From the NCBI RefSeq assembly GCF_000949135.2, contig NZ_JTAN02000019.1, forward strand, positions 186,001-250,000: a stretch of 64,000 nt of DNA. Direction: 5' to 3'. Shown piece after piece: positions 15,317-31,572 of this stretch (position 1 is its first letter; each line of letters begins with the position of its first letter). Source of the stretch: Burkholderia sp. USMB20 (lineage in GTDB: Bacteria > Pseudomonadota > Gammaproteobacteria > Burkholderiales > Burkholderiaceae). The translations under genes were made by a program, and so were the position numbers. A model generated the notes under the pieces. It saw only the letters and a program-made list of their open reading frames with translations. It searched no databases and was not told where the DNA came from.

Positions 15317-15679
15317 ATGACGACCGCACGTTCCCGCAACCGATTGACCGCCTGGCTTGGCATTTTTGCCATGTGGCTCATCGTCATTGCGCCGAGCGTG
15401 AGCCAGGGCCTCGCCGCTCGCGACGCGGATACGCCGATCGCACCGATCTGCTCGGTCGACCGGCAGTCGGACGCCGACCATCACGCGCCGGCGGTCCACT
15501 TCGATGCGTGCGGATATTGCGATCTGCTCGCCCATCACGTGCCGGCACCGGCATCCGCGATACCGCAACTGCACGCGGTCGAAAGCTACGGCGTCGAACA
15601 ACCTTCGGCTTCGCTTGCGTTCGTCTCTCGGGACGTACGCCGGGCAGCACGCCCCCGGGATTCACCGTCCTTCATCTGA
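15317..15679 (+). CDS. DUF2946-type small membrane protein
   Basis: This 120-residue protein has one N-terminal membrane segment (WLGIFAMWLIVIAPSVSQ), then a periplasmic stretch with several histidines (DADHHAP) and the motif ACGYCDLLAHHVP, which carries the CxYC signature seen in DUF2946 proteins. Genes of this family often precede copper or TonB receptor genes, and a metal-binding role is likely but unproven. I chose the ATG at 15317 over the GTG at 15308. It is the first gene of the long co-directional block and is followed after 148 bases by an outer-membrane protein gene. Three similar genes follow at 17551, 19789 and 29349. Confidence 0.75.
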   Translation: MTTARSRNRLTAWLGIFAMWLIVIAPSVSQGLAARDADTPIAPICSVDRQSDADHHAPAVHFDACGYCDLLAHHVPAPASAIPQLHAVESYGVEQPSASLAFVSRDVRRAARPRDSPSFI

Positions 15680-15827
15680 AGCAACTATTTCCGGCCATAT
15701 AGAGCGCTTCCGCAGAATCGCGCGGAACGCCTTTGGTCGCTCGTTTGTAATTTGGACACGCCACATCCGTGCATCCGCGACACGCGGATCGCGCGTGCGC
15801 GTCCGTGCCAGATGAAAGTTGGATGAC

Positions 15828-16895
15828 ATGCGAATCGAATCGAAGAAAACCGTCGACGCGGCCCTCGCCGCGCTCGTCTGCCTGACCGGCCTGACCCTGC
15901 CGATGGCCGCCCGCGCGTGCGCAACCTGCGGCTGCTCGCTGAGCACCGATGCCGCGATGGGCTATTCGGCGATGCCCGGCTGGCGCATCAGCCTGGACTA
16001 CACCTTCCTTCCGCAGAACCAGTTGCGCAACGGGACGAGCGCGGTATCGCCCGGCGTGCCGGCGGCGATCAATGCGGCGGGCGGCAGCCAGGAAGTCGAG
16101 CACCAGACGATCAACCGCTACTGGAACCTCGGGATCAACTACAGCCCGAACCCGAAGTGGAACTTCAGCGCCATCGTCCCGTTCATCGACCGCGGCCACT
16201 CGACGTACGGCAACGCGACGCCGGATCAGCTTACCCCCGACAACCTGAGCGGCGTCACGAGCAAGGGGCTTGGCGACATCAAGCTGATCGCCAGCTATCA
16301 GGGCTTTTTGCCGACCCACAATCTCGGCGTGCAGCTCGGCGTCAAGCTGCCGACCGGAAAATACGGCGGCCAGAACGTACTGACGGGCGCCAGTGTCGGC
16401 CGCAGCCCGGTGTTCTTCTCGTCGGGCCCGAACGGCGCGAACGGCCAGGCCCTGGATACCAGCCTGCAGCCCGGTACCGGCAGCACCGACGTGATCGTCG
16501 GCGCGTACTACTACCAGCCGATCAGCCAGAACTTCGATGCATTCGTCAACGGCCAGTTCCAGTCGGCCGTGTTCGAGAACCTCCACGGCCTCGGCCAGGA
16601 CTTCCGGCCCGGCAACCAGGCGACGGTCAGCATCGGCCTGCGCTACGAAGCGAACCCGAGGATCGTCCCGCAACTCCAGATCAACGTGACCCGCAAGAGC
16701 GCGGACCAGGGCGCACTCGCCGACACTGCCAACACGGCGGGCACGGTCGTCTATCTGTCGCCCGGCGTGACGGTGAACGTCGTGAAGAACCTGAACGTGT
16801 ATGCGTTCGTCCAGAAGTCGCTGTATAGCCGCCTCAGCGGCTATCAGCTATTCCCGCGCTGGTCGGGCACGGTGGGAGCGAGTTATGCGTTCTGA
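15828..16895 (+). CDS. Outer-membrane beta-barrel protein with an N-terminal CxxCxC motif
   Basis: This 355-residue protein has a signal peptide (ALAALVCLTGLTLPMAARA) and mature N terminus CATCGCSLSTD. Alternating amphipathic strands typical of a transporter barrel follow (WRISLDYTFLP, NRYWNLGINYSP, WNFSAIVPFID), ending in aromatic residue SYAF. The fold resembles the transporter/MetA-pathway barrel group. The CATCGC motif directly after the signal cleavage site suggests metal binding. I chose the ATG at 15828; a TTG three codons upstream is also possible. The stop overlaps the TlpA-like gene by 11 bases, so the two are co-translated. Confidence 0.75.
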   Translation: MRIESKKTVDAALAALVCLTGLTLPMAARACATCGCSLSTDAAMGYSAMPGWRISLDYTFLPQNQLRNGTSAVSPGVPAAINAAGGSQEVEHQTINRYWNLGINYSPNPKWNFSAIVPFIDRGHSTYGNATPDQLTPDNLSGVTSKGLGDIKLIASYQGFLPTHNLGVQLGVKLPTGKYGGQNVLTGASVGRSPVFFSSGPNGANGQALDTSLQPGTGSTDVIVGAYYYQPISQNFDAFVNGQFQSAVFENLHGLGQDFRPGNQATVSIGLRYEANPRIVPQLQINVTRKSADQGALADTANTAGTVVYLSPGVTVNVVKNLNVYAFVQKSLYSRLSGYQLFPRWSGTVGASYAF

Positions 16896-17550: not shown

Positions 17551-18036
17551 ATGAACGCACTTCGCCACTTTCTGCACCGGCTTGGCGTCGCGCGACAGCT
17601 ACTGTGGATTCTCATCCTCGTGTCACTGCTGTCTCGCGCGCTGATGTCGGGCGCCGTGATGCTCGATCCGGACGGTCCGGATGCGGGCTCGGTGGTGCTG
17701 TGCTCCGGCCGCGGTCCGCTGATCATCGGCGCGACCGCGCTGACAGCGCGTTTCGACGCGAGCGCGCCGATCACGCCGGCCAACGATGCACTGGCGCTCG
17801 TCAACGTGCTCAAGCACGGTACCGACGCCGGCAAGCCGGCGTCCGCCGATAGCAGCAACGGCGTCTGTGCGTTCAGCGCGGCACTGTTCGCCGCACTGGT
17901 GTCGTTCGTACTGCTCGTGCTGCTGTTTCCCGCCGCGGCTCCGCGGCGCTTCCGCCTTCCGCCCGACGGTGTTCTCCCTGCGCGATCGATATTCGACGAT
18001 CGTCCACCCTCCCGGGCCCCGCCTCAGTTCTGCTGA
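17551..18036 (+). CDS. DUF2946-like small membrane protein, divergent
   Basis: This 161-residue protein has an N-terminal membrane segment (LLWILILVSLLSRALMSG) and a second hydrophobic segment near residues 112-130 (FAALVSFVLLVLLFPAA), between which lie VVLCSG and NGVCAFS. It resembles the DUF2946 layout, but the two cysteines are far apart instead of forming CxYC. The ATG at 17551 follows a sequence without a strong ribosome site. It stands between the TlpA-like gene and the PepSY gene, all on the plus strand. Family membership is less certain than for 15317, 19789 and 29349. Confidence 0.6.
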   Translation: MNALRHFLHRLGVARQLLWILILVSLLSRALMSGAVMLDPDGPDAGSVVLCSGRGPLIIGATALTARFDASAPITPANDALALVNVLKHGTDAGKPASADSSNGVCAFSAALFAALVSFVLLVLLFPAAAPRRFRLPPDGVLPARSIFDDRPPSRAPPQFC

Positions 18037-18347: not shown

Positions 18348-19811
18348 ATGTCGACCGCCGTCGAGCAGGCGATCTCGCCCGCTCGCTCCGCAAGCGCCGG
18401 TTACCGGACGCTCTGGCGCTGGCATTTCTACGCCGGCCTGTTCGTGATGCCGTTCCTCGTGATCCTCGCGATCACGGGGACGCTGTACTGCTTCCAGCCA
18501 CAGATCGAGCCGTTGCTGTATCCGCATCGGCTGATCGTCGCGCCGCGCGATACGCCGAAACTCGATGCCGACACGCTGCTCGCGAAGGCGCGCGGCGCGA
18601 TGCCGGCCGGCGCCACGCCGGTGTCGATCCAGGTATCCACGGCACCGGATCGCAGCGCAGAGTATGTATTCCGGCTGCGCGACGGCCGCCGCGAGAGCGT
18701 CTACGTGAATCCGTACGACGGCAGTGTGCTCGGCACGCTGAGCGTCGAGCGCCGGCTCATGCAGGTCGACCGGATGCTGCATCGCAAGCTGCTGCTCGGC
18801 AAGACCGGCGAACTGCTGATGGAGCTTGCCGCGTGTTGGACCTTCGTGATGATCGGCACCGGGGTCGCGCTGTGGTGGCCACGCGGCGCGGCAAGCGTCG
18901 GGCGGGCGCTACGGCCAGACCTCTCGCTGCGCGGTCGGCCGCTGTGGAAGAACCTCCACGCGACTGCGGGCATCTGGCTCGCGGCCGGCACGGTGGCGTT
19001 CATCCTGACAGGGTTGCCATGGTCGGGCTCGTGGGGCAAGAGCTTCAAGGCGCTCGCCGCGACCGTGAACCTCGGTGAGCCGGACGGCGCGTGGGGCGGC
19101 TCGTCGGTGCGCTCGACGCGCCCGGGTATCGCGACGGTGCCCGCGCGAGCGCCGGCTGCGACACCGGCCGGCCATCACCACGAATCGGGCGGGCCGATGC
19201 CGGGGATGGTGATGGACGACCTGCCGCTGCCGCAAACGCCATGGGCGGTCGGCAACGTGCCCGTTCCGCATTCGCCGTCGGCGCCGACGCCGGCACCGCT
19301 GCCGCTCGCACGCGCGATCGCGTTCGTCGCCGGGCTCGGCGTGACGAACGGCTACACGCTCGCGTTGCCGGCGGGCGCGGACGGCGTGTTCACCGCGTCG
19401 TACTTCCCGGCCGACCCTGAAGCGGAGCGGACGATCTACATCGACCAGTACAGCGGTGCCGTGCTGAAGGACGTCCGCTATGACGACTACGGCGCGGTGT
19501 CGAAAGCCGTGTCGTACGGCACATCGCTGCACATGGGTCGTTACTTCGGGCTCGCGAACCAGATCGTCTGTGCGGTGCTGTCGCTCGGGCTCGCCGCGAT
19601 GGCCGTCACGGGCGCCGTGATGTGGTGGAAGCGCCGCCCGGCAGGGAAACTGGGTGCACCCACGCGCGAACGCGGTGCACCGCGGATGCGCGCCTGGATC
19701 GCGGGGCTCATGCTGCTCGGCATCGTGTTTCCGTTGATGGGGACGACGATCCTCGGCGTCTGGCTGATCGACCGGTTGCTGTTCGGCCGTGCGGCGCGCA
19801 CGGCGGCCTGA
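18348..19811 (+). CDS. PepSY-domain membrane protein with a His/Met-rich loop
   Basis: This 487-residue inner-membrane protein has four or five membrane segments and PepSY-type repeats. The first is WHFYAGLFVMPFLVILAITG, followed by the PepSY-like VYVNPYDGSVLGTL, the mid segment GEYL-like LLMELAACWTFVMIGTGVALWWP, then LWKNLHATAGIWLAAGTV, YIDQYSGAVLKDV, and a C-terminal pair of segments. A loop near residues 273-290 reads GHHHESGGPMPGMVMDD, rich in His and Met and suited to copper. Related proteins beside TonB receptors act as periplasmic metal or siderophore reductases. GAGGAGG lies seven bases before the ATG. The next gene overlaps its end. Confidence 0.8.
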   Translation: MSTAVEQAISPARSASAGYRTLWRWHFYAGLFVMPFLVILAITGTLYCFQPQIEPLLYPHRLIVAPRDTPKLDADTLLAKARGAMPAGATPVSIQVSTAPDRSAEYVFRLRDGRRESVYVNPYDGSVLGTLSVERRLMQVDRMLHRKLLLGKTGELLMELAACWTFVMIGTGVALWWPRGAASVGRALRPDLSLRGRPLWKNLHATAGIWLAAGTVAFILTGLPWSGSWGKSFKALAATVNLGEPDGAWGGSSVRSTRPGIATVPARAPAATPAGHHHESGGPMPGMVMDDLPLPQTPWAVGNVPVPHSPSAPTPAPLPLARAIAFVAGLGVTNGYTLALPAGADGVFTASYFPADPEAERTIYIDQYSGAVLKDVRYDDYGAVSKAVSYGTSLHMGRYFGLANQIVCAVLSLGLAAMAVTGAVMWWKRRPAGKLGAPTRERGAPRMRAWIAGLMLLGIVFPLMGTTILGVWLIDRLLFGRAARTAA

Positions 19812-20208
19812 TTCGTTCCGCGCCGGCGCGCAGAGCACGCCGACGCGACAGGCCCGAGCCACGGCGTGGCTCGGGCTGTTGGCGCTGGTGTTGGCGCTCG
19901 TTTCGCCGGTCGTCTCGCAACTGCGTGCCGGTGAACAAAATCCCGGCATGCCCGTCGCGGCGATTTGCTCGGCGACGGGCGTCGTCTCCGTGGTCCACGC
20001 CGACCCTCACACGCCATCAGGCTCGCATCTCGATCGCTGCGGCTATTGCGGATTCCTCGCCGGTCATCCGCCGCTGCAATACGCAGTTCACTTCCCCGAT
20101 TCCCCGGCCGTGCAGCACGTGCTGCACGAGCCGCCGATCCCGCTCGGCCGCCGCCCGGCAGCGCGCTATGCACTCGCTGCGCGCGGGCCGCCGCTCGCGC
20201 GTTCCTGA
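19789..20208 (+). CDS. DUF2946-type small membrane protein
   Basis: This 139-residue protein has one membrane segment (AWLGLLALVLALVSPVVSQ), then a periplasmic region with DRCGYCGFLAGHPP, the CxYC signature of the group. The start is uncertain: GTG at 19789 overlaps the end of the PepSY gene by 23 bases, and no ATG occurs before the membrane segment. It directly precedes a TonB-dependent receptor gene, the same arrangement as for the other members in this window. Confidence 0.7.
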   Translation: MRRARRPDSFRAGAQSTPTRQARATAWLGLLALVLALVSPVVSQLRAGEQNPGMPVAAICSATGVVSVVHADPHTPSGSHLDRCGYCGFLAGHPPLQYAVHFPDSPAVQHVLHEPPIPLGRRPAARYALAARGPPLARS

Positions 20209-20362: not shown

Positions 20363-22480
20363 ATGTTTCCCTTATCCCGCATGGCCATCGCGCTGTCTGG
20401 TGCGATCTCCGTCCTTTCCGCATCGGCCGCGTGCGCGCAGAGCGCTGCCGCGACGACCGGCGCGCCGGCCGCATCGATGTTGCCGGCGATCACGGTCAAC
20501 GCGAACCGCACGACGGATTCGCTGACGTCGAAATCGACCAACGACCTGAAGCGTACGCTCGACCAGACCGTCGGCGCGGTCGGCTTCGTCGACGCCGACA
20601 GCTTCAAGAACACCTACGCGTTCACGCTGCGCGACGTGCTGAAGGATGTGCCCGGTGTGTTCGTCGAGAATCGTTACGGACAGGAACTGCGCCTGTCGGT
20701 CCGCGGCTCGGGGATCGCGCGCGGCTACCACACGCGCGGCCTCGAGATCCTGCAGGACGGCATCCCGACCAACCTCGCCGACGGCAGCGGCGATTTCTAC
20801 CAGATCGATCCGCTCGCGCTGCAAGCGGCTGAAGTCTACAAGGGCGGCAACGGTCTCGCGTACGGCGCGTCGACGCTGGGCGGGGCGATCAACTTCATTA
20901 CGCCGACGGCGTACACGGCCGACGCACCGAACATCCTGCGCGTCGAAGGCGGCAGCTACGGCACGGTCCGCACGAGCGCGCAGCTCTCGCGCGTGATCGG
21001 CCCGCTCGATTTCCTCGCGAACTTCAGCGTGAATCACGCGGACGGCTATCGCGCTCATGAACGCGGCCAGTACGAGCAGTTCAACGCGAACGTCGGCTAC
21101 CGGTTCAGCCCGACGGTCGAGACGCGCTTCTACGTCGGCGTGTACGTCGTCGACCAGTTGCTGCCCGGCACGCTGTCGCTGTCCGACGCGCTGAACAATC
21201 CGACGAAGGCCGCGCCGAACGCGCTATCCGGCGACCAGGCGCGCAACACGCGCACCGAGCGGATCGCGAACCGGACGACGGTGAAGCTCGATTCCGGCGA
21301 ACTGCAGTTCGACACGTGGGCGATTCACAAGAGCCTGTATCACCCGATCTTCCAGGCGCTCGACCAGGACGGCTGGACGTACGGCTTCGCGCCGCGCTAT
21401 ACGGGCCACCTGACGGTGGGCGGGATGCGCAACGACCTGATCGTCGGCGCGCGCTTCTTCGGCGGACGCACACAGGCGAACCAATACGTGAACGTCAACG
21501 GCGACAAGGGCAGGCAGACGCTCGACTCGACGCAGATGGCGTTCAACTACGAGGCCTATGTCGAAAACCGGCTGTTCTTCCTGCCGACGGTCGCGCTGAT
21601 GACCGGCGTGAAGGCGCTGCGCTCGGTGCGCGAATACATCGACAACGGCGGGCTCGCGACCGATCGGGCCTACAAGTCGACGAGCGCGACCTACAGCGGG
21701 ATCAATCCGAAGCTCGGCCTGCTGTGGCAGCCGGACAAGAACACGCAGGCCTATGTCGACATCACGCGCAGCCAGGACGTGCCCGACTTCGGCGATCTGA
21801 CGCAGACCTTCTCGAACACGACGCGCTTCACGCCGCTCGCGTCGCAGCACGCGTGGACGCTCGAGTTCGGCACGCGCGGCACGCGCGACCGCATGAGCTG
21901 GGACGTGACCGCGTATCGCTCGATCGTGCGCGACCAGTTGCTGCAGTACACGACGAACCCGGACGTTCCGGCGTCGACGTTCAACGCGAACAAGACGGTC
22001 CTGCAGGGCATCGAGGCCGGCGCGTCGGTCGAGCTGTTCCGCAACGTCACGGGCCGCGGCGTCGGCGACAGGATCACGCTGTCGGGGCTCTGGAACCTGA
22101 ACGACTTCCGCTTCAAGGATGATCCGCAGTACGGCAACAACCGGATCGCGGGCGTGCCGCTCAACGTGCTGCGCGCGACGCTTGGCTACTCGCGTCCGAG
22201 CGGCTTCCACATCGCTGCGACGCTCGACTGGGTGCCGTCGGGCGCGTGGGCCGATGATGCGAACACGCTGCGCGTGCCGAGCTACACGCTGCTGGGCCTG
22301 CAGGCCGGCTACGACTTGCGCAACGGGCTGTCGCTGTTCGTCGACGCGCGCAACCTGACGAACAAGCGCTACGTGAGCGACATCAGCACGGTCGCCAACG
22401 CGCGCACCGCGAGCAGCACGGCGATCTTCTACCCCGGCGAGGGCCGCAGCATCTTCGCCGGCATGCGTTACGCGTTCTGA
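20363..22480 (+). CDS. TonB-dependent outer-membrane receptor
   Basis: This 705-residue receptor has a signal peptide ending ACAQS, a TonB-box-like AITVNANRTTD near residue 40, and a plug domain (VGFVDADSFKNTYAFTLRDVLKDVPGV, LSVRGSGI, YGASTLGGAINF). A 22-strand barrel ends in YAF. It imports a metal complex or other ligand using energy from TonB. The ATG at 20363 fits the signal peptide; the open frame runs much further upstream without protein character. It lies between a DUF2946 gene and a truncated secreted ORF, with PepSY genes nearby. The plug is of the FecA/FhuE-like type, but the ligand cannot be read from sequence alone. Confidence 0.9.
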   Translation: MFPLSRMAIALSGAISVLSASAACAQSAAATTGAPAASMLPAITVNANRTTDSLTSKSTNDLKRTLDQTVGAVGFVDADSFKNTYAFTLRDVLKDVPGVFVENRYGQELRLSVRGSGIARGYHTRGLEILQDGIPTNLADGSGDFYQIDPLALQAAEVYKGGNGLAYGASTLGGAINFITPTAYTADAPNILRVEGGSYGTVRTSAQLSRVIGPLDFLANFSVNHADGYRAHERGQYEQFNANVGYRFSPTVETRFYVGVYVVDQLLPGTLSLSDALNNPTKAAPNALSGDQARNTRTERIANRTTVKLDSGELQFDTWAIHKSLYHPIFQALDQDGWTYGFAPRYTGHLTVGGMRNDLIVGARFFGGRTQANQYVNVNGDKGRQTLDSTQMAFNYEAYVENRLFFLPTVALMTGVKALRSVREYIDNGGLATDRAYKSTSATYSGINPKLGLLWQPDKNTQAYVDITRSQDVPDFGDLTQTFSNTTRFTPLASQHAWTLEFGTRGTRDRMSWDVTAYRSIVRDQLLQYTTNPDVPASTFNANKTVLQGIEAGASVELFRNVTGRGVGDRITLSGLWNLNDFRFKDDPQYGNNRIAGVPLNVLRATLGYSRPSGFHIAATLDWVPSGAWADDANTLRVPSYTLLGLQAGYDLRNGLSLFVDARNLTNKRYVSDISTVANARTASSTAIFYPGEGRSIFAGMRYAF

Positions 22481-22491
22481 GGAGAGCAACG

Positions 22492-22587
22492 ATGAAACGT
22501 TCCAGTCTGACCCGTTCGACGCTCGTGCTGCTGGCCCTTCATGCCCCGGTGTCGCACGCGGCATCTTCCACGGTTGAAACGCCCTGA
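22492..22587 (+). CDS. 31-codon ORF consisting almost only of a signal peptide
   Basis: This ORF starts at the ATG at 22492 with GGAGAGC upstream, 11 bases after the receptor stop. It encodes a basic start, a hydrophobic core (STLVLLALHAP) and an AHAAS-type cleavage site, then stops after eight more residues. It looks like the 5' end of a secreted-protein gene whose body has been lost, although a tiny exported peptide cannot be excluded. Downstream to 22701 there is no continuation in any frame. Confidence 0.5.
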   Translation: MKRSSLTRSTLVLLALHAPVSHAASSTVETP

Positions 22588-22701
22588 TTCCGAGCTCGAC
22601 CACTGGCCGTTGAACGGCGATTCCCGATCACGCGATTTTCGCATTCGATCCATTCATGCGGTCGCATCTTTACCCGATCGATTGTGTGACAGACATTTCC
22701 A

Positions 22702-24825
22702 ATGAGCAAAAGAGCATATCCAGCAACGTGGTTCATTCCGGCATGCTTCGCCGTCGCCCTGACGGCGCAGGCGGAGCCCGTCCAGCAACAGGACTGGGAT
22801 CGTGACGCAAGCGAGCCTGCCAAGGCGCATCGCAGCAGCGCCGCGACAGCACCGAAATCAGCACCTCCCGGCGCTTCTGGCAACACCGATTCGACATTCG
22901 TGCTGGGCACCATCGACGTGAGCGGCGCGCGAACGGGCTCCCTGACAACGAAGAACATCCTGACGTCCGTCGACAGGGTCGACGCTGACCATATCGAGAA
23001 CCGGAACGTGCGCAGCCCCTGGGAACTGTTCGGCCAGATGCCGGGCGTGCTGCTGACCGACTTCAATCAAGGCACGACGTCCGGAAAATTGTCGTTTCGC
23101 GGCTTCAACGGCGAAGGCGAGATCAATGCGGTCAAGCTTCTGATCGACGGCGTCCCGTCGAACAGCAACGACGGCAACATGCCGTTCATGGATGCCGTGT
23201 TTCCGCTCGAGATCGATTCGCTCGAGACGGTGCGCGGCACCAACGATCCGCGCTACGGCCTGCACAATATCGCCGGCAACGCGAGCATTGCGACGCTGAC
23301 GGGCGGCAACTACGCGCGCGGCCGAATCGGCTACGGGAGCGACAACACGTTCGACGCGGAAACGGTCGCGGGCCGGGAGACGGATACGTTCTCGCAAAAC
23401 TACGCGTTCGGTTATCGCCAATCGCAGGGATCTCGCGATCATTCGGACATGGACAAGGCCGGACTGGCCGGAAAATGGTTCTACAGTCCGACGTCGAACG
23501 TACGTCTCGGCCTCTCTGCGCGTTACGCGCGCGTGTCGGCGGATGAACCGGGCTACCTGACCGATGTGGACGCACGCACGCATCCGACCGAGTCTTACGC
23601 GTTCAACGCGACCGATCGTGCAACACGAGAAACCGGCCAGTACGCGCTGGTTGCAGACGTCGATCTCACCAACCGCCTGTCATGGTCGTCGACCGCGTAC
23701 ATGAACACCTTCCGCGAGCGGCGCTGGGTGACGTTCTCTGCATCGACGAGCCAGCAGGAGCGCTTCTCGGACGAGCGACATCTCGGCTTCCTGAGCACGC
23801 TGACGTTTCGCCCGCAGGTGAATTGGTTACGCGATCTCGCATTGGAAGCGGGCGCGAGCGGCGAGTGGCAAGACGACGTGAGCCGCCGCTGGCTGACGAA
23901 CCAGCACGTGCGCACATCGCAGACCCGAGATCAGGCGTTTTCGTACGATTCGTGGGGGGCGTATGTGCAAGCCGTCGTCAAGCCGACCGACACGCTGAAG
24001 ATCATCCCGGCCTACCGGATCGATGTGCTGAGCGGCCAGTTGACCAATAACCTGACCGGCAAGCGCTACGACATGAATGACTACGGCCTGATCCAGCAGC
24101 CGAAGATCAGCGCGGTCTACTCGCCGTGGCATGGCTACAGCTTCTACGGCAATTACGGGCGTTCGTTTCAGGTTGGCGTCGGCGCGGGTGCGTACAAGAT
24201 TCCGCCGCGCACGACCGACCTTGCACCTTCGATCAATGACGGCTGGGAGATCGGCATGAAGTTCCAGCCGGCAGACTGGATCGATGGACGCGTTGCCTAC
24301 TGGGAGCAGCTCGCAACCAACGAAGTCCGCCGCAAGCTCAACGATCCGACCGGCGACTACGACAACCTCGGCAAGACAAAGCGCCGCGGCGTCGACCTGC
24401 AGGCGAACCTGCGCATGACGCGGGACGTCGCACTGTGGTTCGCGTACACGTACCAGATGGCACGCATCGTCGATCCGGGGCCAACGAGTCCGGGCAGCGC
24501 CGGCAAGCAGGTCGACCACGTGCCGAACCATCTGCTGTCGGCAGGTGTCGACTATCAGGCGACGACCGATCTTCGCCTGTCCGCATGGGCGAACGCGCAA
24601 AGCGCGTACTACCTCGAACAAACGAACACGAAAGGCAAATTCGGCGATGCGGTCACGGTGAATGCGCGTGCCGCATATCGGCTGTCAAAATCGATGACCA
24701 TCGACGTGCAGGTGACGAATCTGTTCAACCGTTTCAACGAGTACGTGTGGTACGACGGCACGCAGGCGCTCCATTCGCCGGCACCGGGACGTGCGGCGTT
24801 CGCTTCATTGACCGTGAGCTATTGA
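22702..24825 (+). CDS. TonB-dependent outer-membrane receptor
   Basis: This 707-residue receptor is only distantly related to the previous one. It has a signal peptide (ACFAVALTAQAEP), a low-complexity linker, the TonB-box-like LGTIDVSGARTG near residue 70, a plug with SPWELFGQMPGVLLTDFNQG and KLSFRGFNGEGEINAVKLLIDGVPSN, and a barrel ending TVSY. The ATG at 22702 is the natural start. It lies four bases upstream of the second PepSY gene, so receptor and PepSY protein form a unit, an arrangement known for iron-siderophore and copper-complex uptake. No repressor or Fur-like gene is adjacent. Confidence 0.9.
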   Translation: MSKRAYPATWFIPACFAVALTAQAEPVQQQDWDRDASEPAKAHRSSAATAPKSAPPGASGNTDSTFVLGTIDVSGARTGSLTTKNILTSVDRVDADHIENRNVRSPWELFGQMPGVLLTDFNQGTTSGKLSFRGFNGEGEINAVKLLIDGVPSNSNDGNMPFMDAVFPLEIDSLETVRGTNDPRYGLHNIAGNASIATLTGGNYARGRIGYGSDNTFDAETVAGRETDTFSQNYAFGYRQSQGSRDHSDMDKAGLAGKWFYSPTSNVRLGLSARYARVSADEPGYLTDVDARTHPTESYAFNATDRATRETGQYALVADVDLTNRLSWSSTAYMNTFRERRWVTFSASTSQQERFSDERHLGFLSTLTFRPQVNWLRDLALEAGASGEWQDDVSRRWLTNQHVRTSQTRDQAFSYDSWGAYVQAVVKPTDTLKIIPAYRIDVLSGQLTNNLTGKRYDMNDYGLIQQPKISAVYSPWHGYSFYGNYGRSFQVGVGAGAYKIPPRTTDLAPSINDGWEIGMKFQPADWIDGRVAYWEQLATNEVRRKLNDPTGDYDNLGKTKRRGVDLQANLRMTRDVALWFAYTYQMARIVDPGPTSPGSAGKQVDHVPNHLLSAGVDYQATTDLRLSAWANAQSAYYLEQTNTKGKFGDAVTVNARAAYRLSKSMTIDVQVTNLFNRFNEYVWYDGTQALHSPAPGRAAFASLTVSY

Positions 24826-24829
24826 CACG

Positions 24830-26014
24830 ATGATGCGTGACCTCGCACAAACCGGAACCCGCAAGCGCAGGATGCGCGCCGTGTGGCTGCGCATCCATCT
24901 TTGGCTTGGGCTGACAGTGGGCGCGCTGCTGGCGGTGATCGGCCTGACGGGCAGCGCGCTCGTCTTCTACACGACGATCGACGAAGCGTTCGAGCTGCCG
25001 GCAATCGGGTACACGTCGATGCCGAACGACGCGCCGACCTACGAATCGATCGTGCGGCTGCTGAAGCGCACCTGGCCGGACCGGAACCGCGGCTGGCGCC
25101 TGGAGCTTCCATCGGATACGTCGCCCCTCATCCGCGCACGCTACTATCGGCCCGGCGAGAAGGCGGACAGGGCGTTCGCGCCGCTGCTCGTCTGGATCGA
25201 TCCGCGTTCCATGCGGATCGTGCATCACGCATTCTGGGGCAACACGCCGATGACGTGGCTCTACGACATGCATTACACGTTGCTGATGGATGGAGCAGGA
25301 CGGCAGATCGTCGGCTGCGTTGGGCTCGTTGCGCTGATATCCGTCGGCTCGGGGTTATATCTCTGGTGGCCGAGAAGGCGGAGTTTGCGCGCCGCGTTGA
25401 CGGTCAGATTCAACGCAAGTCGGCAGCGTACGACCTACGATCTGCACAAGATCGGCGGTGTCTATCTGCTGCCTGTCGTCGCGATCCTGATCGTGACCGG
25501 TGTGCTGCTGAACATGCCCGAGACGTTTAACCCGATGATCGGGCGGGTGTCGCCGCTGTTCGTGCCGCCGACGTGTAAAGGCGTTCCCGGCCCCCGACAG
25601 ATCACGCTCGACGAAGCGCTGAACGCGGCCCGACAGCGCTTTTCCGATGCAACGCCACGCTGGCTCGAAACGCCTGACGGTCCGCAGGGATGCTATCGCT
25701 TCCGGCTGCACCGGCAAGGTGAGCCCGGTTTCCGGTTCCCTGCCACGACCGTATGGGTCGACGCCTACACCGGTACCGTGATCGGCGCGCGCGACGTCGC
25801 GACCCAGTCCGCAGGCGATACGCTTCTCGGGTGGCTGCATCCGTTGCACAGCGGTGAGGCGCTCGGGCTGCCCGGACGTATTGCCGTCCTTGTGTCCGGG
25901 TTTGCGTTGCCGCTGCTGTTCGTGACTGGTGTGTTGCGCTGGCGGCAAAAGAGTACGGCGAAGCGCGCGGGCACGTCCGACGTCGCGATCAAGGTCGGCG
26001 AATCCGCTCGATGA
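24830..26014 (+). CDS. PepSY-associated transmembrane protein, reductase-like
   Basis: This 394-residue protein has four membrane segments: IHLWLGLTVGALLAVIGLTGSALVFY, VGLVALISVGSGLYLWWP, IGGVYLLPVVAILIVTGVLL and a C-terminal FALPLLFVTGVLRW. PepSY-type domains lie between them, with WVDAYTGTVIGA near residue 310. It resembles the FsrB/PiuB group, inner-membrane proteins that reduce or process substrates delivered by a TonB receptor. Histidines in the membrane segments (LRIHLWLG, DLHKIGG, GWLHPLHSG) could hold heme or metal. It starts at one of two consecutive ATGs (24830 or 24833), four bases after the receptor stop. Confidence 0.8.
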   Translation: MMRDLAQTGTRKRRMRAVWLRIHLWLGLTVGALLAVIGLTGSALVFYTTIDEAFELPAIGYTSMPNDAPTYESIVRLLKRTWPDRNRGWRLELPSDTSPLIRARYYRPGEKADRAFAPLLVWIDPRSMRIVHHAFWGNTPMTWLYDMHYTLLMDGAGRQIVGCVGLVALISVGSGLYLWWPRRRSLRAALTVRFNASRQRTTYDLHKIGGVYLLPVVAILIVTGVLLNMPETFNPMIGRVSPLFVPPTCKGVPGPRQITLDEALNAARQRFSDATPRWLETPDGPQGCYRFRLHRQGEPGFRFPATTVWVDAYTGTVIGARDVATQSAGDTLLGWLHPLHSGEALGLPGRIAVLVSGFALPLLFVTGVLRWRQKSTAKRAGTSDVAIKVGESAR

Positions 26015-26452
26015 CGGCCAGCCGGTCGATCTCGTTCGCAGAGGGCACGATCGTAACGCGACGCGTCGTGGCCCTGCAGCGCGACGCTTTTTACCGCTCC
26101 CCACTTGTTGGCGGCACGAGCCTGCGCGCATGGTCGCTCAGCCTGCGTCACGCGCTGGATCGCCTGGATGACACGACTCGGCGACATCGACGTTCCCACA
26201 ATGAGTGCCTCGATCTGCGGGCGTTCCGTGCCTTGACGGGCTCGGAGCAACGGCGCAGCGGGATGGTCCCCACGAAAGTGGGGTATTTGACCCACTGCAT
26301 CTATGAAGACGCTGTATCACGCTCGTTCTGATAGTGGCAGGATGTGCAAACGGTGTTGTGCCAGCCCGGCGTCTGCGAGCGCTGGTTATCTCGTGGATGT
26401 GTGGCTCCGACACCTTCGACAATCGCTTGCCGCCCTTACCCTGGAGAAGCAA
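26015..26452. other. Intergenic region upstream of the bufferin operon
   Basis: This 438-base region has no convincing gene. Open frames exist on both strands but lack family features. A perfect 6-bp hairpin with a GAAA loop lies at 26268-26283. TTGACC at 26287-26292 could be part of a promoter for bufA1, but a matching -10 is not evident. Confidence 0.5.
26268..26283 (+). terminator. GAAA-tetraloop hairpin
   Basis: CCCCAC-GAAA-GTGGGG is a perfect 6-bp stem closed by a GNRA tetraloop and followed by TATTTGA. It may end the upstream transcript or be a leader structure of the bufferin operon. The T-run is poor, so a canonical intrinsic terminator is doubtful. Confidence 0.4.
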
Positions 26453-26707
26453 ATGAAATCGAATCTCAGCCGGCAGGCCCTGCTTGCCGTGGCGCTCGCC
26501 GGCGTAGCTGCAGCAGCCGTCGCGGCCACGTCGGAGGAAGCCAAAGTGATGTGCTATGGCATCGCCAAGGCCGGCCAAAACGACTGCGGGAGCAAGACCG
26601 GCGTGCATGGCTGCGCGGGTGAGGCGAAGGTCGACTACGACAAGGGCGACTTCAAGATCGTGCCAGCGGGCACTTGCGCAGAACTGGGCGGGACGGTCAG
26701 CCCCTGA
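26453..26707 (+). CDS. bufA1: BufA1-type bufferin precursor (DUF2282)
   Basis: This 84-residue protein has a signal peptide ([16 protein letters not shown]) and a short mature part with four cysteines: [22 protein letters not shown] and [10 protein letters not shown]. This matches DUF2282/BufA1, the precursor of bufferins, ribosomally made copper-binding peptides whose central cysteines are oxidised to thiooxazoles by BufB with help from BufC. The ATG at 26453 has CTGGAGAAG upstream. It is followed after 37 bases by bufB and then bufC. Spacing and order match known bufferin operons. The peptide would act in the periplasm as a copper buffer. Confidence 0.85.
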
Positions 26708-26744
26708 TGTCGCGAAGCGATTGTCGCAGCATGCCGGTGTTCTC

Positions 26745-27641
26745 ATGATCGCAATCGATCCAGTTGCCACCGCGCCATCCGGCATCGGCATCGGGCTGCG
26801 TCACGCCCACTACGCTGACTTTCTCGCAGCACCGCCCGTGGTGGACTGGGTAGAAGTGCATTGCGAGAACTATTTCGGCGATGGCGGCTATGACCTGCAC
26901 GTGCTCGACACCGTGCGACGCGATCTGTCGGTCAGCCTGCATGGCGTCGGCCTTGGGCTCGGCTCGGTCACCCCGCTTGACGCCGGTCATCTGGGCAGGC
27001 TCAAGCGCCTCGTCAAGCGGATCGAACCCGCGGTCGTCTCCGAGCATCTGTGCTGGGGCGCGACGGCTGCCGGTCATCTGAACGACCTGTTGCCGATGCC
27101 GCTGACCGACGCGACGCTCGCTCACCTCACGGCGCGAGTCGACGAAGTGCAGGAGGTACTCGGCCGGCCGATCCTGCTCGAAAACGTTTCCACCTGGCTC
27201 CGGTTCAACGATGACCGGTACGGTGAAACGGTATTCCTCTCCGAACTGGCTCGGCGAACCGGATGCGGCGTACTCCTCGACGTCAACAATCTATACGTGA
27301 ACCAGTGCAATCACGGAGAGAACGCGATCGCGGCAATGGACGCGTTGCCGCAGAGCGTGGTCGGCGAAATCCATCTTGCGGGCCATCGTGTAACCGGTGC
27401 CGCTGTAATCGATGACCATGGCTCACGTGTCGCGCCCGCTGTCTGGAGCCTCTATGAATATGCACTCCGCAGGTTCGGCAACGTGCCAACGTTGATCGAA
27501 TGGGACACGGACATTCCGCCGATGAGCGTGCTGGTCGACGAAGCCCGGCTCGCGCGCGCAGCGCAGCTCCGGGCAGGCGAGAACGTGCGACAGGAAATGA
27601 AGGCGACTCAAGGGCAGGAACGTGATGGCCTTACACCTTGA
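26745..27641 (+). CDS. bufB: BufB, DUF692 multinuclear iron oxidase (MNIO)
   Basis: This 298-residue protein of the DUF692/MNIO family is a TIM-barrel enzyme with two or three iron ions that modifies cysteine in peptide substrates. Conserved metal-ligand stretches are visible: [12 protein letters not shown] at the start, [63 protein letters not shown] and [10 protein letters not shown]. It should act on BufA1. I chose the ATG at 26745; the ribosome site is poor, and an in-frame TTG lies upstream. Its end overlaps bufC by 17 bases. Confidence 0.9.
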
Positions 27642-28491
27642 ATTGCTCCAGCAAATGTTCGCGAGCGCACTTGACGATCCGGAGCAGGAGGAGGCCCTGC
27701 TCAGACTCGTGAAGCCGTTGTCGCCGGTCGCCGGCGGCGCTCTCGATCAAGTCGGTGCACATGCGACGGCTGAATCGCAGCTTCCGGTAGCCACCGGTTC
27801 CGATGAGGCGCTGCACCAGCGCGTCGGACTATACCGGGGCAACGTCCGCTCGCGCTGGCGCGCGGCGCTCGCGACCGCATATCCTGTGTTGCTGGCACTG
27901 GTCGGGGATGCATATTTCGATGCGCTGTCCCTTGCCTATGTCCGTGCGCATCCGTCCGGCAGCGGTGACCTCAATCGCTTCGGCAATGCAATGCCGGCCT
28001 TTGTCGGCGAATACGAGCGAGGCTCGCGCTTTCGATATTTTGCAGATGTGGCGCGCCTCGAGTGGGCGCTGCACGTTGCCTGCTTCGCCGCTGACGCTTC
28101 GGCATTTACACCGCAGCAATGGGTCGAACTCGGTGACGAGCACCTGCTGGATGCGCAACTCGCGGTGCATCCGGCCTGCACGGCCATCGCCTCGGATTAC
28201 GCCATTGCAGACATCTGGCGCGCGCATCAACCAGGTGGCACTTTTCCGCAACGAATCGACGGACCCACGTGGACGCTCGTCGTCCGTCCAGTGTGGCAAC
28301 CCACGGTGCTCGTTCACTCGGAGGCCGCGCACGCGGCCTTCATCGCACTACAAAGTGGAAGTACCCTGGCCGTTGCACTCGACGCAGCATGTGCGATCGA
28401 TCCGGAATTCGATTTCGCCACGCAATGGCACACGTGGATAGCATCATCGGCAATTACCGGCGCGGCCGCAGGCACGGCACGGTCGGTTTGA
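27625..28491 (+). CDS. bufC: BufC, DUF2063 partner protein of the MNIO enzyme
   Basis: This 288-residue protein has an N-terminal DUF2063 region ([29 protein letters not shown], followed by [20 protein letters not shown] and [17 protein letters not shown]). BufC binds the precursor and delivers it to BufB. A GTG at 27622 and an ATG at 27625 both fit; AGGA precedes them. It overlaps bufB, which supports stoichiometric co-translation. The C-terminal half ([27 protein letters not shown]) matches the second domain of the family. No DoxX-type BufD is seen downstream; the next gene is a copper storage protein. Confidence 0.85.
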
Positions 28492-28718
28492 CCTGTGTTT
28501 GGGTGACGATGAACTGATCGTCGCTGCTGCCGCGTTTACGGCGACTGTGCGCCCCAACGTAGATGAGACTATGGGTCGGGTATGAACTCCACCCTGACTG
28601 AGCCATCAGCGTTTCCTTGATGTTAGGATCTGGTCGTTCCAGCCCCATTCCCCGGCGGCTACGAATGCGGGCGTTCGAACGTTTTGTCATTGCGGTAAAT
28701 TTTTTCGGAGATTTTCAC

Positions 28719-29174
28719 ATGGACAGACGTGACGCACTATTCGGTACCGGGCTGCTGGCGCTTTCCGCATTGGCCACAATTGAACGTGCCTCGGCCCAGG
28801 AAAGCGCTCCTGCGCAAACCCCTCACATGCATCATGGTGGTCACTACAGCGCGCTCGCCGATGCGGCGGGCGAGTGCGTATCAACGGGCCAGGCGTGCGT
28901 GAGCCATTGCATTGGTCTTCTGGGCAAGGGGAACAAGGATCTGGCAGCCTGTGCAACCAGCGTGTCACAGATGCTTGCTCTTTGTGGCGCGCTACAACAA
29001 CTTGCCAACCAGAACGCGCACTACCTTCCGGCACTCGCCAAAGTCACGTTGGATGCATGCAACGATTGCGAGGCGGAGTGCAAAAAACATGCTGACCGAC
29101 ACGAGCCGTGCAAGGCGTGCATGGAGTCATGCCGCGCATGTGCTAACGCGTGCCGCGCAGCGCTGGCAACCTGA
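28719..29174 (+). CDS. Csp1-like four-helix copper storage protein, Tat-type signal
   Basis: This 151-residue protein has an N-terminal twin-arginine-like signal (MDRRDALFGTGLLALSAL), then HMHHGGHY. A four-helix bundle with 13 cysteines in CxxxC spacing follows (CVSTGQACVSHC, DACNDCEAECKK, PCKACMESCRACANACRA). This is the layout of DUF326/Csp1, which stores many Cu(I) ions inside the bundle. Export by Tat as a folded protein is typical of Csp1, unlike cytosolic Csp3. GGAG lies eight bases before the ATG at 28719. Its position after bufABC joins a small copper chelator to a bulk copper store. Confidence 0.85.
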   Translation: MDRRDALFGTGLLALSALATIERASAQESAPAQTPHMHHGGHYSALADAAGECVSTGQACVSHCIGLLGKGNKDLAACATSVSQMLALCGALQQLANQNAHYLPALAKVTLDACNDCEAECKKHADRHEPCKACMESCRACANACRAALAT

Positions 29175-29348
29175 ACCGCAGCGGGTTCTTCCGTCCTCCG
29201 ATAGCAATTCCACTTCTGCCTGGCGGTCGCAACTGGCGGCCGCCATCTCCGATTCAGCCTCTTTGCGGGTTTCCACCTAACCCAAAGTCCAACCATCCCG
29301 TCGCAGATTTTCCGCATACTGATTGCATCGACGTCTCGTGGGTCTGCC

Positions 29349-29741
29349 ATGCCCAGCCGTTGCCGTCAGAAGATCGGGGCTTTCCTCGGGATCTTCGCGA
29401 TCCTGCTGAGCGTGGTCGCGCCGACGATATCCCAGACGCTGCGTGGCGCGTCGGCCGAAGGCGCGCATCATTCCCATCATGCGCATCACGCGACTGTAGT
29501 CGCTCATCTCGCCCAAGCTGGGTCTGCCGCACACCATCATGGTTCCGATTCATGGCCGGGTTGTGACGCGTGCCCGTATTGCAGCTTGATTGCGCACATA
29601 CCGACGCTGCCTGGCGCGCTCGTGGCATTCGGCATCCCTGCGCAACCGGCCGGGTTTGTCACGCCGGTTGTGGCTGCGGTGTTTCGTCCATACACGGTTC
29701 TGACACGCGCGCAGCCTCGCGCCCCTCCCGTATTGTCCTGA
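29349..29741 (+). CDS. DUF2946-type small membrane protein, histidine-rich
   Basis: This 130-residue protein has one membrane segment (AFLGIFAILLSVVAPTISQ), then a histidine-rich stretch (HHSHHAHHATVVAHL, and AAHHHGSDSW), then CDACPYCSLIAH with the CxYC signature. The His clusters are the strongest metal-binding hint among the four relatives in this window. The ATG at 29349 fits the signal-anchor start. It lies 104 bases before the outer-membrane protein gene, the same order as at 15317-15828. Confidence 0.8.
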   Translation: MPSRCRQKIGAFLGIFAILLSVVAPTISQTLRGASAEGAHHSHHAHHATVVAHLAQAGSAAHHHGSDSWPGCDACPYCSLIAHIPTLPGALVAFGIPAQPAGFVTPVVAAVFRPYTVLTRAQPRAPPVLS

Positions 29742-29845
29742 TCCCCCGCTGATGGCATTCCCGCGATGCTCGCGCATTGAACGGCATCGCTGTGTCGTCG
29801 CGCGTCTGTTGCGGCGACGCCTACATAATCAACCAGGACATCACC

Positions 29846-30754
29846 ATGCGAACCACTCGCAAACGGGGCGCCGTGGCGCTATGCGCGCTCGCTCCTTGCC
29901 TCTTTTCAGTTGATGCGGCAGCCCATGCGGTGGCCGGCAATCGCGTGTTTCCTGCCACGATGGCGGTCGACGACCCCGGCGTCGGCGACGAACTGAACCT
30001 TGAATTCGGCCATCTGCAGTCCAGCACGGATGACGGCGACAAGCAGAACACCAATACGACGACGCTCGAATGGGACAAGCGGATCACGCCGAGCTTCCAG
30101 CTTTCCGTGACGGGCACGTACGTCAACCTGAACGCGCCGAACGGCGGCTCGGCGAGCGGTTTCGACAACTTCGCGATCGGCGCCAAATACCGCTTCTACG
30201 TGAACGAAAAACACGAGTTCATGGCCTCGGTCGGCGCGACCGCAGAGTTGGGCGGGACCGGGGCGCAGTCGATCGCCGATCCACACTCGGCGATCACGCC
30301 GACGCTCTACTTCGGCAAGGGCTTCGGCGACCTGCCCGACAGTCTGAAATACCTGAAGCCGCTGGCGATCACAGGAACCGTTGGCCCGCGCCTGACATTG
30401 AACAGTGCCGATCCGAATTCGTTGAGCTGGGGCGTCACCGTGCAATACAGCCTGCCTTATCTGCAGAACTTCGTGCAGGACGTGGGGCTCAAGACGCCGT
30501 TCAGCAACCTGATCCCGGTTGTCGAATTTCCAATGAGTACGTGCACCGCCAGTCCATGTTCAGGCCACACGACCGGGACGATCAATCCCGGCGTGATGTG
30601 GGTGAATCGCTGGGGCCAGTTCGGCGTCGAAGCGCAGATTCCCGTCAATCATGCGAGCAGCGCCGGCGTCGGCGTGCTGCTGCAAGCCCATCTGTTCCTG
30701 GACGACGTATTGCCGAACTCGCTCGGCAAACCGATTTTCGGCAAAGGAGATTAG
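29846..30754 (+). CDS. Outer-membrane beta-barrel protein, unknown substrate
   Basis: This 302-residue protein has a signal peptide (LAPCLFSVDAAAHAV) and a mature part of amphipathic strands (LNLEFGHLQ, TTTLEWDKRITPSFQLSVTGTYV, FDNFAIGAKYRFYV, FGVEAQIPVNHASSAGVGVLLQAHLFLDD) as in small transporter barrels. Two cysteines lie close together in CTASPC. The ATG at 29846 has AGGA upstream. The stop is two bases before the start of copC, so both belong to one operon. The family is not identified beyond a barrel; the neighbours suggest copper. Confidence 0.7.
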   Translation: MRTTRKRGAVALCALAPCLFSVDAAAHAVAGNRVFPATMAVDDPGVGDELNLEFGHLQSSTDDGDKQNTNTTTLEWDKRITPSFQLSVTGTYVNLNAPNGGSASGFDNFAIGAKYRFYVNEKHEFMASVGATAELGGTGAQSIADPHSAITPTLYFGKGFGDLPDSLKYLKPLAITGTVGPRLTLNSADPNSLSWGVTVQYSLPYLQNFVQDVGLKTPFSNLIPVVEFPMSTCTASPCSGHTTGTINPGVMWVNRWGQFGVEAQIPVNHASSAGVGVLLQAHLFLDDVLPNSLGKPIFGKGD

Positions 30755-30756
30755 CG

Positions 30757-31131
30757 ATGAAGCTATTCACCAGTCGCCTGCGCGACTACGGCGCGGCAAC
30801 CATCGCAGCAGTCATGCTGATGCCGTCTGCCGCGTTCGCGCACGTGTTCCCGCAGACCCAGTCTCCGTCGGCGGGCGCCGAAGTGCCGGCGCCAGCTAAC
30901 GTAACGATTGTGTTCGACGGGCCGCTCGAACCCGTATTCAGCTCGCTGACCGTCAGCAATTCGGCGGGTAAGCAGATGAACACCGCGAAAGCGCAGGTCA
31001 ATCCCGGCAACAGGAAGTCGATCAGCGTTGCGCTGCCACCGCTGCCTGTCGACCGGTACACCGTCCATTGGGTGGCAGTGGCCTCGGATGGACATCGTAC
31101 GCATGGCGACTATTCGTTCAGGGTGAAGTGA
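30757..31131 (+). CDS. copC: CopC-type periplasmic copper-binding protein
   Basis: This 124-residue protein has a signal peptide ending SAAFAH, so that mature residue 1 is histidine, the Cu(II) ligand of CopC. The beta-barrel follows (HVFPQTQSPSAGAEV, NVTIVFDGPLEPVF, IFSS-like SSLTVSN) and the second half has WVAVASDGHRTHGDYSFRV, with the Asp and His ligands of the Cu(II) site. It has no methionine-rich Cu(I) loop, so it belongs to the Cu(II)-only class. CopC delivers periplasmic copper to CopD; no copD is adjacent. AAGGAG lies just before the ATG. It is the last gene of the copper block. Confidence 0.9.
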   Translation: MKLFTSRLRDYGAATIAAVMLMPSAAFAHVFPQTQSPSAGAEVPAPANVTIVFDGPLEPVFSSLTVSNSAGKQMNTAKAQVNPGNRKSISVALPPLPVDRYTVHWVAVASDGHRTHGDYSFRVK

Positions 31132-31173
31132 TGGAGCCGGCGATGGTATTCGCATCGATCGTGGTTGCGCCGA

Positions 31174-31572
31174 GAGCGGCTTGTCGAACCAGCGCCGCGC
31201 GCTGCCGCGCCGCGGCAGGGCTGGGTCCGTCCAGTCTGCGGTGGGCGCAACCAGGAACCGTTCATACAGCAGGAAATCTTCGCGCGTGAGGCTCGAGAGC
31301 GGCTTGTCAAGCGCACGTGTGGCCCATACGAGCAGGCGCACGAGCTCCTTGCGACAGCTGCGCAGCATGTGGGGCGAGCCCACGTACTCCGCCAGCCACG
31401 GGCGCACGGCGCCGACGTCCGTGTCGGCCGAAATCTGTCGATGCGCGCCGCGAAGCGCTCCCGCTGAGCCACATGGCAACACGCACGCGTGTCGCTCGGC
31501 GAGGCGATGGAGGTTGCGGACGAAACCGACGGTGGCGTTGAGGCGCACAAACTGGCTGTCAGGCACGGTTAC
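31174..31572 (-). pseudogene. Tyrosine-recombinase (integrase) N-terminal remnant
   Basis: About 130 codons on the minus strand read as the N-terminal arm- and core-binding part of a site-specific integrase: PDSQFVRLNATVGFVRNLH, RSCRKELVRLLVWATRALDKP, LSSLTREDFLLYERFLVAPTADW and GSARRWFDKPLS. The frame is disturbed near 31440-31480, and the catalytic domain with R-H-R-Y residues is absent. The remnant lies directly after copC on the opposite strand and marks the right edge of the copper block. Confidence 0.65.

Follow-up and report, generated by a model that had tools for sequence, protein, structure and literature searches.

The stretch analysed here comprises 64,000 nucleotides (nt) of Burkholderia sp. 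USMB20 (contig NZ_JTAN02000019.1, positions 186,001 to 250,000; hereafter the window) and carries, between positions 26453 and 31131, seven genes in the order bufA-bufB-bufC-csp1-DUF2946-barrel-copC, all on the plus strand. A first-pass annotation, made from the letters alone, had described this gene set, order and strand, and these were confirmed by the coordinates and, for six of the seven genes, by Pfam or NCBIfam models (Table 1); the exception is the gene called a barrel, for which weak matches only were obtained. Three genes score below the cut-off of an NCBIfam model, namely bufA with the BufA2 model (28.1 of 60 bits), bufC with HvfC (32.1 of 142) and copC with NF033814 (77.4 of 95). 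The same annotation had read the locus as a single operon. We propose instead that the DUF2946 gene, a cruR-type upstream open reading frame (uORF), divides it into a copper sink (bufABC and csp1) and a separately switched unit (cruR-barrel-copC), and with moderate confidence we regard the whole as a locus for copper homeostasis whose halves are under different control, the second governed by an arrest-peptide switch.

Table 1. Genes and predicted regulatory features of the locus, in window coordinates
Feature	Position	Strand	Description and basis
bufA	26453..26707	+	Buf1/DUF2282 bufferin precursor, signal peptide, 4 Cys; PF10048 76.6 bits (cut-off 22.4)
bufB	26745..27641	+	MNIO maturase; NF050167 MNIO_BufB 358.6 bits (cut-off 310)
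bufC	27625..28491	+	DUF2063 partner; PF09836 66.2 bits (cut-off 27.2)
Candidate promoter or leader, conserved block 5' of csp1	28601..28718	+	Kept in 5 loci, 1 without buf
csp1	28719..29174	+	Tat-type, 13-Cys copper storage protein; TIGR04401 149.6 bits (cut-off 100)
cruR-type uORF (DUF2946)	29349..29741	+	PF11162 58 bits (cut-off 23.7); CPYC-45-RAPP-VLS spacing
RAPP arrest codons (predicted)	29718..29729	+	Motif position
Anti-Shine-Dalgarno, cruR last codons and stop (predicted)	29734..29740	+	Pairing, covariation, codon bias
Stretch pairing with it, barrel Shine-Dalgarno (predicted)	29834..29840	+	Complementarity to cruR end
Exported protein, probably outer-membrane barrel, 302 aa	29846..30754	+	Weak family matches of relatives; AxA-His
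copC	30757..31131	+	PF04234 68.8 bits (cut-off 23.3); H29, D111, H113 align with 6nfq

The product of the DUF2946 gene has the anatomy of a CruR uORF: a CPYC motif is followed after 45 residues by RAPP, and three residues (VLS) then lead to the end. CruR of the Bordetella pertussis genes cruR-bfrG(crtA)-bp2921(crpH) is likewise a DUF2946 peptide with a signal-like N-terminus, a CXXC located 45 residues before RAPP and RAPP three residues from the end, and precedes copper-related genes (PMC9426467, PMC12914433, PMC13038864). It is reported to perceive copper and to control the next genes via Rho (PMC9426467); its arrest at RAPP was seen in vitro (PMC12992588), and copper relieves this arrest. 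The window uORF differs from it in preceding a barrel-copC pair beside bufABC-csp1; homologues of CruR do have CopC among their listed partners. According to these reports, the DUF2946 proteins studied so far are regulatory uORFs, and their genes are reported as heads of operons. A second member of the family, CutF of the Rhodobacter capsulatus CutF-CutO switch (PMC9973294), resembles the window system in coupling an arrest-like C-terminus to an RNA structure that shields the Shine-Dalgarno (SD) sequence of the next gene; in CutF, however, the motif is CxxxC and copper promotes stalling, and CruR and CutF are described as not isofunctional. The copper-motif region of the window protein reads CDACPYC, which holds two overlapping CXXC and lacks the CxxxC of CutF.

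We examined two sets of barrel loci. The first contains 26 loci, which are the window, five that carry buf or csp1, and 20 picked from the best matches on account of their barrel; a CruR-type uORF lies 5' of the barrel in all 26. In the second set it was found in 37 of 40 loci, with a spacing of 45 residues in 36 and 46 in one, the three loci without a usable pair being L172 and L177, where no cruR was found, and L192, where no start was found.

RNA folding suggested that the SD of the barrel gene pairs with the end of cruR. The pairing of the last 18 nt of cruR with the SD is equalled by fewer than 5% of the other nearby 18-mers in 19 of the 26 first-set loci, and by fewer than 5% of shuffled versions of these 18 nt in 15 of the 26. 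When the SD was anchored regardless of pairing, 73% of the cells paired in 23 distinct sequences, against 29-51% in slid registers and a permutation mean of 64%, which is high because the SD core is shared; none of 5000 permutations reached the observed pairing. Outside the SD core, 56 of 92 cells pair vs 35.9 expected, and one position shows G-C, A-U, C-G, U-A and G-U, hence all four Watson-Crick types (for these pairing and covariation tests the starts of L121, L131 and L139 were set by hand). The codons point the same way: of 63 loci, 54 have a serine codon just before the cruR stop, and in 52 of these 54 (28 of 30 distinct ends) it is TCC, vs a TCC share of 15% in the window genes. Among DUF2946 loci from the class-level search, 10 of 26 gene pairs fell below 0.05, with starts set automatically, some of them wrong (e.g. 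L166), and with several pairs from one genome (G001).

The geometry of the arrest is consistent with this pairing. With a front-edge offset that we take to be +15/+16 from the P-site, the edge of a ribosome paused in the way reported for CruR would lie at 29739/29740, which is the end of the predicted anti-SD. A model of the stall in which 31 nt were kept unpaired gave a mean SD accessibility of 0.47, up from 0.28 (in the window 0.45, up from 0.30, with 0.33 for control stretches), uncorrected starts being used for L121, L131 and L139. We therefore put forward, as a tentative idea to which we give somewhat less than an even chance, that the last codons and stop of CruR-family genes act as an anti-SD beneath the RAPP-arrested ribosome, that one copper-sensing pause would thus control both translation and Rho, and that its position by the sink would place sink and carrier under opposite copper control. 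This predicted helix is apparently unreported for CruR-family uORFs: Roy 2022 attributes control to Rho and nowhere uses the word 'Shine' in its main text, no such feature was found in the literature searched, and DUF2946 and Shine-Dalgarno occur together in the CutF paper and in a review. If true, it would bring the modes of CruR and CutF together in a single device, and the covariation makes a common mechanism testable by a few point mutations.

The gene following cruR lies where the first-pass annotation had placed it, and its identity as a barrel is plausible only. The 302-residue protein gives no Pfam match by itself; among 18 aligned relatives, eight weakly match Phenol_MetA_deg (best E 0.0012), three match Porin_4 and three OMP_b-brl. 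Its AlphaFold model (predicted local distance difference test, pLDDT, 33.5) is too poor to use, and its profile found no match among solved structures. Judging from these relatives, it is probably an outer-membrane barrel. The likely signal cleavage site reads AxA followed by His-Ala-Val/Ile in 26 of 26 first-set barrels (by eye) and in 34 of the 39 second-set barrels shown. The mature protein thus likely begins with histidine, unless AHA is the cleavage site, and an N-terminal histidine would suit Cu(II) binding. In CopC, AFA likewise precedes a histidine (H29) at an inferred cleavage site; together with D111 and H113 this residue presumably forms the Cu(II) site, made of an N-terminal His and an Asp-x-His motif.

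Upstream, the sink is better defined. The four cysteines noted earlier for BufA are kept in 8 of 8 aligned sequences, the window's own among the eight, and a signal peptide was recognised by eye. Of the nine iron ligands of TglH named in PMC10880893, eight (His107, Glu151, Asp184, Asn187, His216, Asp229, His231 and Glu258) align with identical residues of BufB (H101, E146, D179, N182, H210, D223, H225 and E252); the ninth, His71, falls outside the TglH alignment, its likely counterpart being H66, which aligns with His60 of 3BWW. These ligand residues are also kept in four related BufB proteins and two paralogues. The first-pass annotation had held that its reading would fall if BufB lacked iron ligands; the alignment shows them retained, as it had supposed, and BufB is therefore expected to be active. 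The genes resemble the Buf1 cluster bufABC(DoxX) described in PMC12452194 in having a DUF2282 precursor with four cysteines, an MNIO with iron ligands and a DUF2063 partner, and differ from it in that bufC is followed by csp1 instead of DoxX. DoxX, a frequent but not universal member of Buf1 clusters, was not found among that part of the window's proteins which the scan covered.

The exported 13-cysteine protein was also correctly recognised as Csp1-like. All 13 cysteines align with those of 5fjd, the Csp1 of Methylosinus trichosporium, with which it further shares an export signal (a twin-arginine (Tat) signal beginning MDRRDALFG, by eye) and a score over the family cut-off; unlike that protein, it is encoded next to a bufferin cluster. 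A Buf1-type bufferin pathway beside a genuine Csp1 and a CopC with Cu(II) ligand residues is supported. Buf, Csp1, CruR and CopC are each already known. The bufferin-Csp1 neighbourhood was not found in the literature searched; in the main text of PMC12452194 'Csp' is absent and copper storage proteins are mentioned solely for a structural resemblance. With this neighbourhood, nature provides a setting in which to study how periplasmic copper is divided between a modified peptide buffer and a protein store.

The single-operon reading was not accepted, on two grounds. First, csp1, which begins 227 nt after bufC, has its own upstream block, conserved in five loci including one without buf. Second, cruR, of a gene family reported to head operons, stands between the sink and the last two genes, 174 nt after csp1 and 104 nt before the barrel gene.

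In the mechanism that we propose, BufBC would, by homology, oxidise two central cysteines of BufA to copper-binding thiooxazoles and Csp1 would hold Cu(I) on its cysteines, so that bufABC and csp1 would form a periplasmic copper sink. A ribosome translating CruR would pause at RAPP, with its front edge covering the anti-SD in the last codons of cruR; during the pause the barrel SD would be free and transcription shielded from Rho, and the barrel and CopC would be made. When copper meets the nascent CPYC, the pause would be relieved, the anti-SD would pair with the SD, Rho might terminate, and the two proteins would fall. In this scheme copper would shut down what is probably a Cu(II)-handling pair, next to a sink for excess copper. 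The sequences themselves show the gene identities, the CXXC-45-RAPP anatomy, the complementarity of anti-SD and SD with its covariation and codon bias, the recurring gene order and the mosaic ancestry. Cysteine modification, copper storage, arrest, copper sensing and the part of Rho are all drawn from homologues, and the sign of control of barrel-copC, the role of the barrel and the coupling of the halves are guesses. As regards Rho, the stretch around the cruR end has an excess of C over G (mean percentile 0.094 in the 26 loci; below 0.05 in 12), which agrees with the rut site (Rho utilisation) reported for CruR and is no proof alone.

Several observations weigh against this reading. In the second set, where of 31 distinct pairs one was dropped as already in the first, covariation is weaker: 142 of 5000 permutations reach the observed value when all pairs are counted, 81 of 5000 when only the extension is, where pairing is weak, and 260 of 5000 for the single covarying position; at the stop codon there is no excess of pairs. 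Because the loci are related, the pairing, covariation and codon counts are inflated, and the certainty given by the permutations is overstated. The modelled stall brings little or no gain in SD accessibility in L002, L118, L121, L131, L136, L137 and L139; the cruR-barrel intergenic fold of the window is not unusual (z -1.12), and two of the other three uORFs of the window (at 17551 and ~19789) pair at background level. No sigma-70-like promoter was found in 22400-31300, where terminator-like sites are not above expectation, and no promoter consensus was recognised in the block upstream of csp1. Finally, csp1 and buf are found apart in some loci, and CutF, of the same family, responds to copper in the opposite sense, so the sign of control could be reversed.

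The recurrence of the genes bears on whether the two halves belong together. The arrangement goes beyond chance: all seven genes stand in the same order in B. cepacia LK29 (L001) and in genome G207 (L101), and six of the genes recur in Trinickia fusca (L005), where copC was not detected. Other loci hold csp1-cruR-barrel-copC without buf (G002), bufABC-cruR-barrel-copC without csp1 (L118 of G231, with thioredoxin, CATC-barrel and TonB genes nearby on the opposite strand) or, in 20 of 20 cases (L120-L139), cruR and the barrel followed by copC with neither. We take cruR-barrel-copC to be the older unit, which buf and csp1 would have joined later. In B. cepacia LK29, a truncated second copy of the barrel gene (145 aa) and copC (51 aa) lies 5' of bufA (L001, 6708-7300).

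The linkage of buf with csp1 is real, local and sporadic. Among 398 Burkholderiaceae genomes, 141 have a DUF2282 match and 119 match the Csp1 model at E <=0.001, only six of them over the cut-off; in three of these six (G001, G207 and G005) a DUF2282 gene lies ~2 kb from csp1 on the same contig. Csp1 exceeds the cut-off in 3 of 65 genomes of the genus of G001, 1 of 3 of the genus of G002, and 15 of 369 at class level. Eight Burkholderiaceae csp1 loci were seen, including the window and Paraburkholderia humisilvae (L004): four have buf (the window, G001, G207 and G005) and five, these four and G002, have cruR-barrel, while that of G364 has neither and the contigs of G003 and G004 end just after csp1, so that this side cannot be judged there. 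No buf gene was detected by tblastn with the window proteins near 15 other gammaproteobacterial Csp1 loci (14 genomes; stretches of 5-17 kb, several reaching a contig end). Among 72,556 plasmid records, three matched Csp1, none above 60% identity. The co-occurrence in other Burkholderia that the first-pass annotation had suggested looking for was found, in a sporadic form, csp1 and buf also occurring separately.

The locus is moreover a mosaic. The barrel tree places the window together with nine loci from the genus of B. cepacia (100/100), whereas the cruR tree places it with Trinickia-type and G231 loci (100/100); L120-L126 share 78-87% identity with the window in the barrel and only 33-53% in cruR. 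These differing trees and identities imply that cruR and barrel have different histories, with a join between them. An arrival of the window's cruR type with a buf cassette was considered and withdrawn, as G248 (L120) has a cruR of the same clade and no buf in the 11 kb fetched. Directly after copC, at ~31159-31539 on the minus strand, lies a tyrosine recombinase remnant, a scar of a mobile element; it has no Pfam or NCBIfam match, and shares 76.5% identity with an unannotated plasmid stretch and 73.5%, over residues 69-166, with an annotated tyrosine-type recombinase. G+C is 0.59-0.65 across ~22.5-31.5 kb vs 0.68-0.72 at 31.5-36 kb and 0.68-0.71 at 12-15 kb. Since the association of the sink with CopC is sporadic and the locus mosaic, an obligate form of the integrated periplasmic system suggested earlier is not indicated.

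This patchwork invites the view that bufABC, csp1 and cruR-barrel-copC are separate cassettes sharing one island and working independently, a view whose probability we set just short of even. Every combination of the parts occurs, and csp1's own upstream block, the discordant trees and the recombinase remnant also speak for it. However, the seven-gene order in three Burkholderia-type loci, the six genes in Trinickia and the concern of all parts with copper speak for coupling; the view denies coupling only and leaves the switch untouched.

The switch itself would lose its RNA helix if the terminal TCC and the complementarity merely followed from the C-richness of a Rho site and from a common SD sequence. 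The C-over-G excess at the cruR end suits this explanation, as does the fact that a UCCU core matches any AGGA. General C-richness as the cause of the TCC was nevertheless unsupported when tested, as only 21 of the 116 serine codons inside first-set cruR genes are TCC and third positions near the cruR end are not enriched in C (0.31 vs a background of 0.44); with the covariation outside the SD core, albeit weaker in the second set, this makes the explanation unlikely.

A sign of control like that of CutF is in our view slightly less likely still. Copper would then strengthen the pause, the anti-SD would stay masked, and barrel-copC would rise together with buf and csp1, making the whole locus a detoxification response. 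CutF works in this way, with its SD-shielding RNA structure, and an anti-SD is predicted in the window too; yet CutF carries CxxxC, whereas the window protein has CXXC at CruR spacing with RAPP, and in CruR copper relieves the arrest. The first-pass annotation implied that the DUF2946 protein is a periplasmic His/Cys copper binder acting together with Csp1 and CopC. Its 130 residues include 11 His and 4 Cys and its N-terminus is signal-like, which fits, but the invariant CXXC-RAPP spacing, the codon-level constraint after RAPP, the occurrence of the gene with barrel-copC also without buf and csp1, and the published failure to detect the CruR and CutF proteins in cells led us to reject this role as highly improbable.

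The surroundings of the seven genes also appear to concern copper. Upstream lie three more DUF2946-type uORFs, a thioredoxin-like gene, two PepSY_TM genes and two TonB receptors. The receptor-PepSY_TM pairs are at most candidates for the CrtA-CrpH copper importer (PMC12914433, PMC13038864), which they match in order and domains, and the best NCBIfam match of a window receptor is a siderophore model, below its cut-off. In G207 the first TonB receptor abuts bufA; in the window the second receptor-PepSY pair lies between. The window looks like a large copper locus in which acquisition-type genes stand beside sink-type genes.

The three other uORFs differ from cruR in their motifs. That at 17551-18036 ends in RAPP, has no CXXC and precedes a PepSY_TM gene (PF11162 20.4 bits, cut-off 23.7); it may be an arrest peptide whose signal is perhaps not copper. 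That at ~19789-20208, whose start is not settled, precedes the first TonB receptor and shows CGYC-44-RGPP (PF11162 49.2 bits). At 15317-16895, a DUF2946 uORF with RDSP in the place of RAPP, which shows a 7-bp pairing not clearly at its SD, is followed by a gene for an exported 355-residue protein with an N-terminal CATCGCS and a weak PgaA_barrel match.

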